From contig NZ_CP066171.1 in the NCBI RefSeq assembly GCF_028867705.1, positions 1,364,001-1,428,000 on the forward strand: DNA of 64,000 nucleotides, written 5' to 3'. Shown piece after piece: positions 7,077 through 32,890 of the stretch; within the stretch, counting starts at the first letter, position 1; each line of letters begins with the position of its first letter. This DNA is from Thermoleophilum album. Lineage in GTDB: Bacteria > Actinomycetota > Thermoleophilia > Solirubrobacterales > Thermoleophilaceae. The notes beneath the pieces were generated by a model. The model saw nothing but the letters and a program-made list of their open reading frames with translations, did not search any database and was not told the origin of the DNA. A program made the position numbers and the translations under genes.

Positions 7077-7973
7077 CTAACGACCTATACCAAATTTCTC
7101 CAGGTTCGTTATGATTAGCACTATGATGTTTAGCAAGTCACGTACCCTCTCCAGAGACGGCAACGGTTCACGAGGATAATCCCCGTGCACAATCCAATTT
7201 CGCCACTTGCATAGGTCGGCGAGAGCTTCATCCGGTTTCGACAGATCGTAGCTTGTAGAACTCGCTGTCGCCCGACCTTCGAAGAGGTACTCTATATGCA
7301 ATCCATCCTGGCGCCACTGTGCGAGCAGCGCTTGCCATTTCTCCGTAGCCGTAGATGATGGATCTGACGGCGACCCGAAACAGCGTTGTAGTTCGTCTCC
7401 GATAGCCTTCCAGCTGCCCGGCCACAAATCAACAAGCTGGAGCACCTCGGTAAACTTCCCAGGATTGGTACTGGCACGACTTCTTATGTAGTCCTCGAGA
7501 ATCTTGCGGTAGCCCCAAACACGGCGTTCGTAAGAACGTTCGATGTCTAGAATCTCCCCGAGATCAGTGTTGACCTTCCGCAAGCGCTGACGTATCTCGG
7601 GTGTCGATTCGGCCTTCTTTAGGATGTTTCCTACTTGACGGCATGCGAATTCTTCGAGCCACACTTCGACAGCCGTCGCGGCGACGATGATGGCGTTGCG
7701 AGTAAGGATCTCTGTGGCATGCTGGAGGTGGTGCGGCTTGACTGGGGAGTCTCCCTTAACGACGATCCACGCCCACCTCGACGCTGCTACATCGAGCGTC
7801 TCACGATCTTCCTGCGACAATTGAAAGACACTGTCGAGCTCTTCTCGTACCTCTGCTCTAGCCTTTCCTTGCCCCTCATTTTGGAGCATTTCCGCGAGCC
7901 GTAAAAGGAGGCAGGCATCGTTGAAATGCTCAATAAACACATCATACGGAGCCGGGCGTTTTGTTCGTGGCAT
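7077..7973 (-). CDS. HEPN-domain protein, candidate RNase/toxin
   Basis: A 298-residue, mostly helical soluble protein. The start ATG (7971-7973) follows AAGGAGA by about eight bases; the longer in-frame start upstream lacks a ribosome site. The C-terminal region has R258-N-W-I-V-H263-G followed by a predicted helical segment (SLERVRDLLNIIVLIITNLEKFG). R-x4-6-H with Asn after the Arg is the catalytic signature of HEPN ribonucleases found in toxin-antitoxin, abortive-infection and CRISPR systems. The overall layout resembles the RiboL-PSP/MAE_28990-like HEPN families (inference). No nucleotidyltransferase (MNT) or other antitoxin is adjacent. An operator-like array about 125 bases upstream resembles the one ahead of the ABC operon at 8349-11630. 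The codon usage is less GC-biased than in core genes, suggesting acquisition. Confidence 0.65.
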   Translation of the reverse strand: MPRTKRPAPYDVFIEHFNDACLLLRLAEMLQNEGQGKARAEVREELDSVFQLSQEDRETLDVAASRWAWIVVKGDSPVKPHHLQHATEILTRNAIIVAATAVEVWLEEFACRQVGNILKKAESTPEIRQRLRKVNTDLGEILDIERSYERRVWGYRKILEDYIRSRASTNPGKFTEVLQLVDLWPGSWKAIGDELQRCFGSPSDPSSTATEKWQALLAQWRQDGLHIEYLFEGRATASSTSYDLSKPDEALADLCKWRNWIVHGDYPREPLPSLERVRDLLNIIVLIITNLEKFGIGR

Positions 7974-8348
7974 ACCTATCTCTCCTTCATGAGCTGAAAT
8001 AGATGACTGGGCTTGCCACGCCTGCGAACTCGAAGCCCTGAGCACAGGCACGCTTCTCGTTTGTCGACACTCCTAGTACGAAGCGACGCGACATGCAATG
8101 GTGGATTTCCACCACTTCGGTATGATGGATAACGACCATGTGCGCAGATCAGTTCCGGGCTTCCGCCAGGGATACGTTGTCGAATCGCGGACCGCGAGAT
8201 GGTGGTTAACACAACGTGTTCCTCGAGCAGGGTTCGGGCGTCGGCAGGTCACACCGAGGTCCGAGACTTGCTCGTGAGCAGCACGGGGGAGAGACTGCGA
8301 GACGGCTATGGCTGCGAGAGCTACGGCTTCTAGCGTCTAGGCGACGGT
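7974..8348. other. Intergenic region between HEPN gene and ABC operon
   Basis: No gene is supported. It contains the operator-like dyads at 8093-8143 and presumably the HEPN promoter. I found no clear terminator for the ABC operon within it. Confidence 0.4.
8093..8143. promoter_or_regulatory. Operator-like dyad pair A, upstream of HEPN gene
   Basis: Two imperfect dyads with 7-base spacers. TGGTGG (8099-8104) faces CCACTT (8112-8117), and TGATGG (8123-8128) faces CCATGT (8136-8141). In each dyad the half-sites start 13 bases apart. The same half-site and spacing occur at 11871-11923. It lies between the end of the ABC operon and the HEPN start. Confidence 0.5.
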
Positions 8349-9239
8349 CTAGGCGACGAGCTCGCGCCGGGCCATTGCTGCGCGCAGCGCCCACAAGGCC
8401 GCGCCGGCCCAAACGGCTAGCTGCGCTTTCCACCACCAGCTGATGCAATCGGGAGAGGAGAAGGAGCTGGCCCCGCAAAAGTGCTGCTGCCATTTGATCT
8501 GGAGTATCGGGTCGATGCGGTACTGCCAGGCAAGCGCGGAAAGGCCCGAGTTGTCCGAGATCAAGCTGTCGAGCATGGGGCTGATCGCGAAGTGGGCGAC
8601 GAGCAGTGCGCTAGCTAGTGCGTAGGCCACGGTGCGCGATCGGATCAAGAGCCCGAGCAGCGCCCCGAACGCCGCCACCGGCAACAGCACAGGTATGCGG
8701 ACTAGCGCCAGCAGCACTGCTTCGACACCTGGCGCCACGTCGAGCCGGGGAATTTCCCGGTACATGTCCGGATAGGTGGTGTAGTCGGATGGTGCGAACG
8801 ACGGCTTGAAGCCCGCGAATGGCGCGAGCACGAGGATCAACACAACCGAGACAACGACAACGAGCACACAGATCAGCGCGAGCGATATCGCCTTCGACAA
8901 CCAGTAGCGCCGCCAACCACCAACTCGGTGCAGCGTGACCCATGCACCGCCCCGCTCGCGGTCCTCAGCGGTAAGCGCCACGCCCAAAAGCAGCGCCGAC
9001 AGAAGATGCATGCCGAACGCAGCGACGTCACGAGCCAGGACTATCGGCACCACATCGAGCAGCGACGGGTGGAGCGGATGGTTGTAGGGGTTGGGCTCGT
9101 TCAGGATGATCCTGTTCGGTTGCGGGATGTCGAGCGCGGTGACAATGAAGAACGCCATCGCTGCGAGCACACCCAGCCCGCGCCAGCCCGAAAGCAGCCA
9201 GCGCAACTCGTAGCGCGAAAGCGCAAACGCCGCTCTCAC
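8349..9239 (-). CDS. ABC-2 type transporter permease
   Basis: A 296-residue integral membrane protein with about six hydrophobic segments (for example LISLALICVLVVVVSVVLILVL-like stretches after residue 120, and VRIPVLLPVAAFGALLGLLI). It has the charged cytosolic loop RERGGAWVTLHRVGGWRRYW, typical of ABC-2 permeases that couple to their ATPase. The GTG start at 9237-9239 overlaps the ATPase stop in GTGA, so translation is coupled; the longer open frame upstream lies entirely within the ATPase gene. A large extracytoplasmic loop (PFAGFKPSFAPSDYTTYPDM) follows the middle membrane segment. Last gene of a four-gene operon; substrate unknown. Confidence 0.75.
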   Translation of the reverse strand: MRAAFALSRYELRWLLSGWRGLGVLAAMAFFIVTALDIPQPNRIILNEPNPYNHPLHPSLLDVVPIVLARDVAAFGMHLLSALLLGVALTAEDRERGGAWVTLHRVGGWRRYWLSKAISLALICVLVVVVSVVLILVLAPFAGFKPSFAPSDYTTYPDMYREIPRLDVAPGVEAVLLALVRIPVLLPVAAFGALLGLLIRSRTVAYALASALLVAHFAISPMLDSLISDNSGLSALAWQYRIDPILQIKWQQHFCGASSFSSPDCISWWWKAQLAVWAGAALWALRAAMARRELVA

Positions 9240-10198
9240 AGCACCGCACCCCCGTCCAGCAGCCGCAGAAACTCGGCCTCCAGCGACGCCCGCGCCGGCC
9301 GAAACTCGCACACCCCCACACCGCCCGCAACGAGCTCGGCGAGCAGCTCGGGAAGCGGCCGCGCCACGCGCACCAACAGCTCTCCCGTCTCCTCGAGCGC
9401 TTCCACCACCCACCCGCGCCCGGCCGCAAGCGCACGCAAACGCTCCTCATCGGCCCCCGTGGCACAGCGCACAAGCGCCCCCTCCAGATCCCGCAACTCA
9501 AGCACCTTCCGAACCTCGCCCCGCGCCACCAAAAGCACCCGATCACACAACCGCTCAACCTCCGTCAGCATGTGGCTCGCCAACACAATCGCGATCCCAT
9601 GCTCGTCAGCGAGCCTGCGCAAAAGCCCGCGCAACGCCACGATCGCCTCCGGATCGAGACCGTTCGTCGGCTCGTCCAACACCAAAAGCCGCGGATCCTC
9701 CATCAACGCCTGCGCCAGATAAAGACGCTGGCGCATACCGTGCGAAAACCCCCGCACCGGCTTGCGCGACCCAGGATCCAGCCCAACCAACCGCAACGTC
9801 TCCTCGATCTTCCCGCGATCCGCAACCCCCCGCACCGACGCCAAAAGCTCGAGATTCCGCCGCGCCGACAGCTCCGGCACCATCCCCATCTGCTCAGCCA
9901 CCAACCCAAGCCCCACCGGCACCCTCGCCCGCGGATCGCAACCAAACACCCTCACCTCGCCCTCGCTAGGCGGCGTGAGCCCACACACCATCTTCAAAAA
10001 CGTCGACTTCCCCGCCCCATTCGGACCGATGAAGCCAAGCACATCGCCCGCACACAACTCCACACTCACACCACGGATCGCCCACTGGCTCCCATAACGG
10101 CGACCAAGATTGCGAGTCACAAGCACCGGATCCCCGGCGACACCAGCCGCGGCCCTCGATGGCTGGATAGTGGCGGAAACAGATACCTGTGCCGTCAC
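9236..10198 (-). CDS. ABC transporter ATP-binding protein
   Basis: A 320-residue ATPase. Walker A is GFIGPNGAGKST near residue 59, the signature is GFSHGMRQRLYLAQAL near residue 150, Walker B is LLVLDEPTNGLD, and the switch His is in IVLASHMLTEVE. The signature motif is FSHGM rather than LSGGQ, as is common in CcmA/NatA-type drug and peptide exporters. A C-terminal domain of about 85 residues follows the nucleotide-binding domain. It would power the two permeases encoded on either side. The coding strand is strongly enriched in G and T at silent positions compared with core genes of the window. Confidence 0.9.
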   Translation of the reverse strand: MTAQVSVSATIQPSRAAAGVAGDPVLVTRNLGRRYGSQWAIRGVSVELCAGDVLGFIGPNGAGKSTFLKMVCGLTPPSEGEVRVFGCDPRARVPVGLGLVAEQMGMVPELSARRNLELLASVRGVADRGKIEETLRLVGLDPGSRKPVRGFSHGMRQRLYLAQALMEDPRLLVLDEPTNGLDPEAIVALRGLLRRLADEHGIAIVLASHMLTEVERLCDRVLLVARGEVRKVLELRDLEGALVRCATGADEERLRALAAGRGWVVEALEETGELLVRVARPLPELLAELVAGGVGVCEFRPARASLEAEFLRLLDGGAVL

Positions 10199-10241
10199 GA
10201 CACGACCTCCTTACCTTCCAGACAGCTAACCGTCCCGTCGA

Positions 10242-11201
10242 TCACGCGCGCGCCTCCTGGCGCCACGCAGCCACACATACGAATAACAATGACACCACAA
10301 GCAGCGATAGGAACACCCCGAAAGGAACCACCCACAGCCACGGCGCGTCGAACGTGGCCACGATCTTGCTGTACACCGGTGCGACCTCCAAGTACGGCTG
10401 GAAAGAAAACCACTTCCCCCACGGCATTTGCGACCTGAACGGGTTCAACATCGGCCACATACAAAGCGTGAACACAAGCAGTGTCGGCACGATCGGTCGC
10501 GCCACAACCTGACCTATCGCACAGCCAAGCGCAGCAACCGCCGCGCACGCAACCGCACCCAACACAACCGTCACCAGATCACACACAAGCGGCGAGAAAT
10601 GCCACAAACCGGGTGTGGGAAAACCCATCTCGTAGGGTGGGATAACAGTGCGCGGATCGTACCCCATCTCGACCGCAGCCCGAAAAGCGCCCGGCCGAAT
10701 CAGCGCGTGATCACGCCACGGCAGGGTCAAAAGATTCAACACCACAAGCGCACAACCAACCAGCGTGCCCACAAAACCAGCCGCCAACGACCCCGCAACA
10801 GTACGCACAACCGCAAGCCGCACACCCCGCAACCCCCGCACCGCATACAACACATCCTCCCCACGACCACGCCCCACAGCCGTCAACGCCCCACCAACCG
10901 CAAACCCAAGCAACGGAAGCCCCCAAGCGAAGAGGCTCTCTCTGGTGCTGCACGTAAGCGCCCCAAACGCTCCCCGCGCCTCGCTCCCCGAGCAACCCAC
11001 CCCCTGGCGCGAGTTCAAATACATAGCAACCACAAGCACCAGGCCCGCAGCCACCACCACTAGGCGTGCGACGCAACGCCGAGCCAACGCCAAAACCACG
11101 CGCGCCGTACGCACACCCACACGACCGTGTCGCACCGCGCCGCCCCGGGCAAAATGCCCAGGGCGGCCGGCACGAGCAACTACACCACTAGCCATCACCA
11201 A
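10242..11201 (-). CDS. ABC transporter permease, first of pair
   Basis: A multi-pass membrane protein of up to 319 residues with about six hydrophobic segments: LVVVAAGLVLVVAMYL near residue 50, FAWGLPLLGFAVGGAL, AGSLAAGFVGTLVGCALVVL, and three near the C-terminus ending FGVFLSLLVVSLLFVCVAAW. An extracytoplasmic loop between the third and fourth holds YDPRTVIPPYEMGFPTPGLW. It has the layout of an ABC-2 permease but only weak sequence resemblance to known families. The start is uncertain: the long N-terminus is basic, and a start some 30 codons later is possible. It sits 43 bases before the ATPase gene and 18 bases after the small exported protein. Confidence 0.65.
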   Translation of the reverse strand: MVMASGVVARAGRPGHFARGGAVRHGRVGVRTARVVLALARRCVARLVVVAAGLVLVVAMYLNSRQGVGCSGSEARGAFGALTCSTRESLFAWGLPLLGFAVGGALTAVGRGRGEDVLYAVRGLRGVRLAVVRTVAGSLAAGFVGTLVGCALVVLNLLTLPWRDHALIRPGAFRAAVEMGYDPRTVIPPYEMGFPTPGLWHFSPLVCDLVTVVLGAVACAAVAALGCAIGQVVARPIVPTLLVFTLCMWPMLNPFRSQMPWGKWFSFQPYLEVAPVYSKIVATFDAPWLWVVPFGVFLSLLVVSLLFVCVAAWRQEARA

Positions 11202-11219
11202 ACACTCGCCGCACTAGCA

Positions 11220-11630
11220 CTACGGGCAGCGGAAGCGCAGCCGCAAACGGATGTGATCGGTGTCGAGACCAGAACTGTCGGTATAGATGCCGGGATACAT
11301 GCGGTCCCTACCAGCGATCCAGCCGTTGTCGGCCTGACCCTTTTCGAGCTTGGCGGACTCCCAACGCACATCGCCGCTCTTGCCGCGACGGACTTGCACT
11401 TTTGCCCAGCCTCCATCGTCGATGAAAAGCACACGCACTCCAATGCTGCGACAGCGCTGGATTGCGAAGCTGAGCGTTGTGCAATATCTCCAGCCCCATC
11501 GGTCGGTGCTGCACGCCAGCTCCACCACCGTGTCGGCGCTCGCCGTCGCCACCGGCCCGGCCGTAGCAACAGCCCCACACGCTGCGAGCGTTGCGGCTGA
11601 CGCCGCGACACACCTGCGCAACCTCTTCAC
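11220..11630 (-). CDS. Small exported Cys-containing protein of unknown function
   Basis: A GTG start at 11628-11630 with AAGGGAG eight bases before it gives 136 residues. The N-terminus is a clear signal peptide: KRLRR, then a hydrophobic Ala-rich core ending about residue 30 near TASADTVV. The mature part has four Cys (in ELACSTDRWGWRYCTT, IQRCRSIG and the final RFRCP), which could form two disulfides, and ends in a basic beta-like segment HIRLRLRFRCP. I recognise no family. As first gene of the ABC operon it may be the exported cargo, a surface partner or a resistance factor; the sequence does not decide. Confidence 0.6.
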   Translation of the reverse strand: MKRLRRCVAASAATLAACGAVATAGPVATASADTVVELACSTDRWGWRYCTTLSFAIQRCRSIGVRVLFIDDGGWAKVQVRRGKSGDVRWESAKLEKGQADNGWIAGRDRMYPGIYTDSSGLDTDHIRLRLRFRCP

Positions 11631-11680
11631 CTGTCTTACTCCCTTTCCTGCGCACTCGAACCAACATGTGCGGCCACAGA

Positions 11681-11704
11681 CCATTAGGCCATTGGGTCAT
11701 TGGG
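11681..11704. repeat. Three tandem 8-base repeats
   Basis: CCATTAGG, CCATTGGG and TCATTGGG follow each other without gaps, 51 bases upstream of the GTG of the small exported protein. They could be part of its leader or promoter; too short to assign. Confidence 0.5.
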
Positions 11705-11870
11705 CCACGCCGCCTCGCGACAAGCGAGCAGGCGGCCGGCACCCTAGCACACACATCTGACGCACACAACGCTCGACACCCGCACCGAACAACGCTCTTT
11801 CACACGCAGCCCAAGATCCATACCGTGTAGGTAACTCGGCTTCTAATACGCGCGCGCTTATCACACACAA

Positions 11871-11923
11871 CCATCACACGCAATGATGGAAATCCACCAT
11901 CGACTGATGGCGGACAACCATCA
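11871..11923. promoter_or_regulatory. Operator-like array B, upstream of the ABC operon
   Basis: Five half-sites alternate in orientation: CCATCA at 11871, TGATGG at 11884, CCATC at 11897, TGATGG at 11905 and CCATCA at 11918. Neighbouring half-sites start 13 bases apart, except 8 between the third and fourth. The two outer pairs are perfect 6-bp dyads. The array lies about 240 bases before the start of the exported-protein gene and resembles the array upstream of the HEPN gene. No regulator gene is adjacent. Confidence 0.55.
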
Positions 11924-12006
11924 TCGATACGCGCAACGGTTGCAGCGGCCGCGAGGCGCCACCGCCCCTCCCCAACCAGCGCCCCTGCCCCAGAACACCA
12001 AGCCAG

Positions 12007-12080
12007 CGCCCCCGGCAGGATTCGAACCTGCGACCTAGGGATTAGAAGTCCCTCGCTCTGATCCGCTGAGCTACGGGGGC
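12007..12080 (-). tRNA. tRNA-Arg (anticodon TCT)
   Basis: A 74-base cloverleaf: acceptor GCCCCCG pairs with CGGGGGC, the anticodon stem is AGGGA/TCCCT around loop CTTCTAA (anticodon at 12044-12046), and the T arm contains GGTTCGAATCC. CCA is not encoded. It reads AGA (and possibly AGG), rare codons in this GC-rich genome. Confidence 0.93.
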
Positions 12081-31114: not shown

Positions 31115-32890
31115 CTACGAATCCCCGCTCGGCGGTTGCACTGTGTAAACCCGCAGGTAGCGTTGCCAGTCGACGCCGGTTTGGATGTCGAAGTAGTAGG
31201 CGTCTTCGGTTGGGCTGTAGCCGATGCCGCCTTGGTGGGTGTTTTGTTGGGCGAATTGGTAGATGGGGTCGGGGTGCCCGAAGGCGGTGTAGGTGTTGCC
31301 GCTTTCGAATTGGAGCATTCCCGACCCGTTGCCTTCGCCGTTGGTGTCGCCGATCCACATGCCGTATTTGGCCATCGCTTTGAGGATCGGTTTCTTCCAG
31401 GCGGGCACGGGCAGCTGGTCGATCTGTTGGGGTGTCATGTCGAGGTGGATGTAGGCGCCGAGCGGTGCGGATGCTGCGCGCCGCTCGGCTGTGGAGCACG
31501 GGGTGCCGGTGCCGGGACCGTGGGCGGGCCAGGTGTAGGTGCCGTTCGAGCAGTCGATCCCGAAAAACAGACCGTGCTCGATCCGGCCCGCGACGAGCTC
31601 TTGGGCTCTGATGATCCCGGCCGAGAGGGCGAAGTGGGCGGCGGTCGCGTTCGACCCAAGCCCATCACCGTCGATGCGGGTCATCCCGCCCCAGCGCACA
31701 CGCAGCGTCCCGCCGCTGCTACCAACCGCACCGGTTTTCTCCACACCCCAAAAGTCGTACTCCCACCCGGTCTGCTGGTCGATCACCGTCATGTGCTTGT
31801 CCACACAACAGTCCGGGCGCGCCTGGGCGGGGATCCGCACCTGCACACCCTCGACCTCGCACCGCCCCCACTGCTCGGTGCACGTCACCGTGAACAGCGG
31901 GTCCGACGGGCGCGAGAAATAGATCGGGTGGTAGAACTGGGCGCCCAGCTCGTACCGGTAGCCCGCATACAGCGGGATGAACGCCCGCCGCTCACCCATC
32001 ATCCGATCAACGATCTGCTGCGAATTCGGGAGCGGCACAAGCCGCCCCTCGGCCTCGAGCTGCGCGAAAGTGGTGTTGAACGGCGACCGATCCGAAAACG
32101 GCCGCCAACACACCGACGGCCACACACCCACACCAAACGAACCCCAACCAAAAGACCAGGAGGCAGGGTGTGCCTCTGTGCACACCGGTTCGCTGTCCGT
32201 GTCCGCCGTGCTGGGCGGCGTGCTCGTCCCGAGCCACCCCGCGGCACTCTCACCGCCCACGCTACCGCGGCTGCTGACGAGGGTCGCTCCGCGCCGCTCG
32301 CCCTGGTCGGACGGTGCCGACGTGGAGGAGCGCTCGCGACCGCCAGCCGGCGGCTCGCCGCGCTCGGCTGTCGACCGCTCTCCACCACGCGACGGTTCGT
32401 CGTCCGGTCCGGCGCTCGTGTCGTCGCGCGGAGGAGACGGCGGCGAACCGCCGCGCTCGCTCGCTTGCGGCACTGGCTCGCTGCGGCCCGGTTGCCCCGA
32501 CGGCTTCGGCACAGCACCACCCGAGCGCGGAACTGCAACAGCGACGTCCGTCGCCCCGCGCTCCCTACGCCAGTGATCGACGCGTCGCCACCGCCACCGC
32601 TGAGAACGCCTGCCATCGAGGCGCTGCCTGCGCAGGGCTCGTGCTCTACGACCAGAAGGTGCGATGGCCTCGGCCGCCCGGCGCTCGGGACCTGTGTCTT
32701 GTAGACGCGGGCGCTCCCCCGGCGAGCTCTCTCCGGCCTTGCCGGCAGATCGGCCGTTGCGGCCGAGCTCTTCGCCGCTTTGTCGCCACGGGTGCAGCGT
32801 CAAGAGAACGAGCGCGATGAAGACCAAGCACGCGAACGCTGAATGACCCGGTGCCGCGGCACTACTGCACTTAACCAACCTGACTCGCAC
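31115..32890 (-). CDS. Large secreted or anchored protein with a conserved-looking C-terminal domain
   Basis: 591 residues from GTG, with GAGGGGG eight bases upstream. A signal or anchor helix lies at residues about 18-33 (FACLVFIALVLLTLHP), then some 170 residues of disordered Arg/Ser/Gly/Pro/Glu linker. A Cys-containing domain runs from about 235 to the end. That domain has DKHMTVIDQQTGWEYDFWGV, AAHFALSAGIIRAQELVAG, RIEHGLFFGIDC, GAYIHLDM and AMAKYGMWIGDTNG, which I recall from other secreted actinobacterial proteins of unknown function. The motifs suggest a beta-rich extracellular domain; no catalytic assignment is made. Base composition at silent sites differs from the neighbours (coding strand rich in C and A). 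Confidence 0.65.
   Translation of the reverse strand: MRVRLVKCSSAAAPGHSAFACLVFIALVLLTLHPWRQSGEELGRNGRSAGKAGESSPGERPRLQDTGPERRAAEAIAPSGRRARALRRQRLDGRRSQRWRWRRVDHWRRERGATDVAVAVPRSGGAVPKPSGQPGRSEPVPQASERGGSPPSPPRDDTSAGPDDEPSRGGERSTAERGEPPAGGRERSSTSAPSDQGERRGATLVSSRGSVGGESAAGWLGTSTPPSTADTDSEPVCTEAHPASWSFGWGSFGVGVWPSVCWRPFSDRSPFNTTFAQLEAEGRLVPLPNSQQIVDRMMGERRAFIPLYAGYRYELGAQFYHPIYFSRPSDPLFTVTCTEQWGRCEVEGVQVRIPAQARPDCCVDKHMTVIDQQTGWEYDFWGVEKTGAVGSSGGTLRVRWGGMTRIDGDGLGSNATAAHFALSAGIIRAQELVAGRIEHGLFFGIDCSNGTYTWPAHGPGTGTPCSTAERRAASAPLGAYIHLDMTPQQIDQLPVPAWKKPILKAMAKYGMWIGDTNGEGNGSGMLQFESGNTYTAFGHPDPIYQFAQQNTHQGGIGYSPTEDAYYFDIQTGVDWQRYLRVYTVQPPSGDS

Follow-up and report, generated by a model that had tools for sequence, protein, structure and literature searches.

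Two arrays of short inverted half-sites, array A (8096-8141) and array B (11871-11923), lie in the 64,000-base window of the Thermoleophilum album genome analyzed here. The arrays match each other closely, occur in this form at no other place in the genome, and fall within a stretch of about 6 kb that is missing from a sister species. Each precedes a leftward gene unit, one encoding a HEPN-domain protein and the other a small exported protein with an ABC transporter. They are probably sites bound by a single regulator, interesting but ordinary in kind. The reading favored here, with moderate confidence, takes A and B for tandem operators of the same dimeric DNA-binding regulator.

Architecture and distribution of the arrays

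Both arrays are features without strand, built from half-sites with the consensus TGRTGG/CCAYCA. Array A has the order TGGTGGATTTCCACCA-N8-TGATGG-N7-CCATGT, in which TGGTGGATTTCCACCA occupies 8099-8114 and the second dyad 8123-8141; its half-sites are TGGTGG (8099), CCACCA (8109, overlapping CCACTT at 8112), TGATGG (8123), and CCATGT (8136). Array B has one half-site more and the order CCATCA-N7-TGATGGAAATCCACCA-N5-TGATGG-N7-CCATCA. Here CCATCA (11871) is followed by the near-palindrome TGATGGAAATCCACCA (11884-11899), which holds TGATGG (11884) and CCACCA (11894, overlapping CCATCG at 11897), and then by the perfect dyad TGATGG-N7-CCATCA (11905-11923, half-sites at 11905 and 11918). B contains two perfect 6-bp dyads, one facing outward (11871-11889) and one facing inward (11905-11923). 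The best reading of the first dyad, in A as in B, is a palindrome of 16 bp, TGRTGGAwwTCCACCA, whose halves are 10 bases apart. The order and spacing of the elements agree between A and B apart from a gap of 8 bases in A versus 5 in B, and the dyads are 24 bases apart in A and 21 in B. No direct-repeat family between 5.9 and 12.25 kb is larger than that of the four 18-nt dyads (at 8098, 8122, 11883, and 11904, two per array). An earlier sequence-only reading had reported half-site clusters at 8099-8141 and 11871-11923, where the motif is indeed found. The uniform 13-base start-to-start spacing that it described was only partly right: it applies to some pairs but not to others, the first dyads being 10 apart, and the gap of 8 versus 5 bases departs from an otherwise shared layout.

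The likeness of the two arrays far exceeds what chance would produce. When B was aligned to the intergenic region containing A, the local score was 35 in reverse complement and 31 in direct orientation. The highest control values were 28 among 4000 dinucleotide-preserving shuffles, 25 among 4000 random genome windows, and 24 among 3000 windows of matched G+C, so that the A-to-B score was reached by none of the 4000 shuffles and none of the 4000 genome windows. A chance resemblance, for which one could cite that single dyads, at two mismatches or fewer, are at chance level in the genome, is hence scarcely credible. Across the whole genome, TGATGG-N7-CCATCA with up to two mismatches occurs at 47 sites against 51 for the reversed control, which makes lone degenerate dyads uninformative; the outward dyad CCATCA-N7-TGATGG, B excepted, is likewise at control level in the genome. 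The support that the sequence-only reading had looked for in such a scan, a small set of sites with a regulator gene's among them, was not obtained.

More specific patterns set the arrays apart. In a search of the genome (2.1 Mb) with B and its flanks, A was the best other match (E 0.09). The 16-bp core TGRTGGANNTCCAYCA has two copies in the 2,112,804-base genome, at A and B only, and a single match across all 40 relatives, in G037 (L016). Tandem dyads were absent from a 400-kb sample of genome stretches used as the background set, and B was the sole match to the tandem pattern among 299 genomes of the class. With a half-site matrix trained on the arrays themselves, A and B score 45-46 and the best of the 400-kb sample 34.9. 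Genome pattern searches and the 400-kb sample revealed no third array. As would be expected of a shared operator, the core (A and B only in the genome) and the tandem dyads (judged against the 400-kb sample) are thus found at a few intergenic places and are not scattered.

Several further candidates were rejected. The cluster scoring 34.9, near 3.8 kb of the chromosome, is inside the coding sequence of recF (named from its translation). The three one-mismatch dyads whose context was read (L002, L003, and L004) are inside long open reading frames, as is a weak BLAST match (L007). Six tandem-pattern matches in viral contigs consist for the most part of repeats or sequence of low complexity, and their number is near the chance expectation. 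Separately, two motif matches at 31662-31791 of the window are found again, with sequence and spacing unchanged, near 695.6 kb of G000:C1, which suggests a repeated element.

The similarity between A and B is limited to about 46 bases centered on the dyads. This confinement, together with the position of both copies upstream of genes, speaks against a local duplication of one ancestral element that has no present function. Such an origin would fit two diverged copies 3.8 kb apart and no others, and it is considered quite unlikely.

Gene context and origin of the stretch

Both arrays are intergenic. A has the end of the ABC unit on its right, and B has the 3' ends of tRNA genes, so only the leftward genes are placed to use the arrays. 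The alignment score and the unique core bear out the description of A and B as related to each other and each placed before a leftward unit.

The HEPN-domain protein gene (7077-7973, minus strand) has its longest open reading frame extending to 8051, where the start would be GTG. The ATG at 7973, preceded by a good Shine-Dalgarno sequence, is the likelier start, and it places A about 120-170 bases upstream. The sequence R-N-W-I-V-H in the translation fits the R-X4-6-H HEPN motif. No homologue of the protein was detectable in 299 class and 386 phylum genomes, and an AlphaFold model made without an alignment was unusably poor (mean pLDDT 44). A homologue on a Streptomyces plasmid (27% identity over 171 residues) was considered and set aside, having no array near its start.

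The second unit begins with the small exported protein (11220-11684, minus strand), which has a signal-peptide-like N-terminus. It is followed on the same strand by a membrane protein without family match that is probably an ABC permease (10242-11201), by an ABC transporter ATP-binding protein (9236-10198), and, in distal position, by an ABC-2 type permease reading frame (8349-9413) whose start is uncertain and which overlaps that of the ATPase. Measured from the longest possible start of the exported protein (11684), array B is some 190-240 bases upstream; from an internal start near 11630, which is likelier, the distance is about 240-290 bases. The exported protein gave weak, short matches and no convincing homologue in 199 class genomes, and the upstream permease (10242-11201) had no detectable homologue in 295 other phylum genomes. 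Homologues of the ATPase are numerous, and the closest (50% identical, in G017) belongs to a permease-ATPase-permease operon; no half-site cluster is found upstream of that operon, the nearest homologous one, yet distant. The ABC unit (8349-11684) also shows a strong strand bias, with an AT skew of up to 0.61 and a GC skew of about -0.37 on the plus strand.

The stretch of about 6 kb (5.95-12.0 kb) that holds the two arrays together with the HEPN gene and ABC operon is without counterpart in the sister species G001. Its right edge is at tRNA-Arg (tct) (12006-12080, minus strand). In G001, tRNA-Pro and tRNA-Arg are followed, beside the same tRNA-Arg, by a relative of the 3-dmu-9 gene. There is no clean empty site, as about 380 bases between tRNA-Arg and this relative are unaligned. 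Because G001 carries other genes there, the flank of tRNA-Arg may be a variable spot. Beyond the same tRNA-Arg, G001 has genes resembling those of an N-6 DNA methylase, a nucleotidyltransferase, and a HerA-like ATPase (L043, 2337-8240; judged from translations only). Elsewhere in the window, at 934-2862, the N6_N4_Mtase DNA methylase profile is matched in part by each of two separate reading frames, as would be seen if a single methylase gene had been broken. Within the stretch, G+C changes just to the right of A, from about 53-55% in the HEPN unit to about 60-68% in the ABC unit, so the G+C-poorer HEPN gene and the ABC unit may differ in origin.

This arrangement raises the question of whether A and B could be a direct-orientation pair of recombination or insertion sites bounding the ABC module, with the HEPN and ABC units acquired separately. 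The 3.8-kb ABC unit is bracketed by direct repeats, the G+C switch falls just right of A, and at the same tRNA-Arg the sister species lacks the stretch, all of which would suit such an origin. However, no recombinase gene was recognized in the stretch, and its left edge has neither a third copy nor a repeat of the tRNA end. Moreover, the arrays are palindromic, and direct and inverted orientations are indistinguishable (scores 31 and 35). Integron attC sites resemble the arrays in being imperfect palindromes beside gene units in one orientation; the arrays differ from them in that inspection by eye showed no R boxes (GTTRRRY / RYYYAAC) at the base of the stem at B, no integrase was recognized in the stretch, and A forms no strong hairpin. 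Recombination sites are an unlikely explanation. A broader scheme, in which the arrays and the stem-loop at B form an undescribed module system, a paired palindromic element that both bounds and controls separately acquired HEPN and ABC exporter units beside a tRNA gene, is very unlikely.

The stem-loop at array B

Array B is contained in a long predicted stem-loop on the leftward strand (11851-11953, minus strand; 103 nt; 43 pairs, 11 of them G-U), located 53 bases downstream of tRNA-Arg. The leftward strand folds with -59.9 kcal/mol (z -7.0), and none of 200 shuffles was as stable; the opposite strand gives a weaker fold (-34.7, z -3.1). Among sampled genome windows, about 0.01% reach a strand difference of this size. 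When the half-sites were held fixed and the rest was shuffled, one sequence in 1000 was as stable, so the half-sites alone do not account for the outer stem. Across the ABC unit, the leftward strand is rich in G and T, which favors G-U pairs and contributes to the strand difference.

These properties could point to an RNA element in the leftward transcript, situated downstream of tRNA-Arg and serving as a leader or in processing or termination, with the half-sites partly a by-product and A a decayed copy. The asymmetry of folding, its rarity among genome windows, and its persistence as an extreme with fixed half-sites favor this explanation. Conversely, A retains its half-sites yet folds poorly, with no comparable structure (z -1.6), and the G+T-rich strand by itself favors G-U pairing. 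In addition, the full stem (11851-11953) is not followed by a U-tract, as read from the sequence, and Rfam gave no match to the stem-loop, only two tRNAs being above threshold. As a strong stem-loop that comes after a tRNA gene, B recalls an intrinsic terminator, from which it differs by the missing U-tract and a far longer stem. Of this structure a terminator scan returned only a short hairpin inside it (11871-11889), and terminator-like matches in the region were no commoner than in shuffles. An RNA element is judged unlikely. Because A has the half-sites without the fold of B, the signal that the arrays share most likely acts as double-stranded DNA.

A candidate shared regulator

If A and B are operators, each array would offer two pseudo-palindromic sites 21-24 bases apart, on which bound dimers would be spaced by roughly two helical turns. 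Tandem operators of dimeric repressors and activators (TetR, GntR, LacI, IclR, and similar) have this form: short palindromes of 16-19 bp that precede genes and are repeated in tandem some two helical turns apart. These systems differ from the present case in that no regulator gene was recognized in the stretch here. No known operator matching TGRTGGAwwTCCACCA was found in the literature searched by motif words. In a paper on CitO, the motif words belong to a mutagenesis primer.

In both arrays the similarity extends beyond the first dyad into ACA(T/C)GCAATG, which corresponds to TTGC(A/G)T on the leftward strand. From its sequence, TTGC(A/G)T may be a -35 element. The arrays stand immediately upstream of it in the leftward direction, and a regulator bound there would control the HEPN gene and the exported-protein/ABC operon. 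A consensus scan found no sigma-70-type promoter near either array, and the -10 elements are poor.

The regulator would be encoded elsewhere or would be an unrecognized protein. The sequence-only reading had noted no adjacent regulator gene, and no gene for a DNA-binding regulator was recognized among the open reading frames of the stretch and the neighboring ones scanned. The proposal of a single regulator for both units fared less clearly: it is the simplest account of two matched arrays, but neither a regulator gene nor a third array was found. Other points also count against operators. The dyads are spaced differently in A and B, the start codon is far from B (190-290 bases), and the -10 elements are weak; the ABC operon of G017 is without the motif.

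Tandem operators of one dimeric regulator nevertheless remain the preferred reading of A and B. If it is correct, one control governs an orphan HEPN protein and an orphan exporter together with its small secreted protein. Such joint control, if true, would suggest a joint role, for example in defense or competition, and the arrays would offer a direct way to the regulator. If the arrays are not operators, the stem-loop at B beside tRNA-Arg still wants an explanation.
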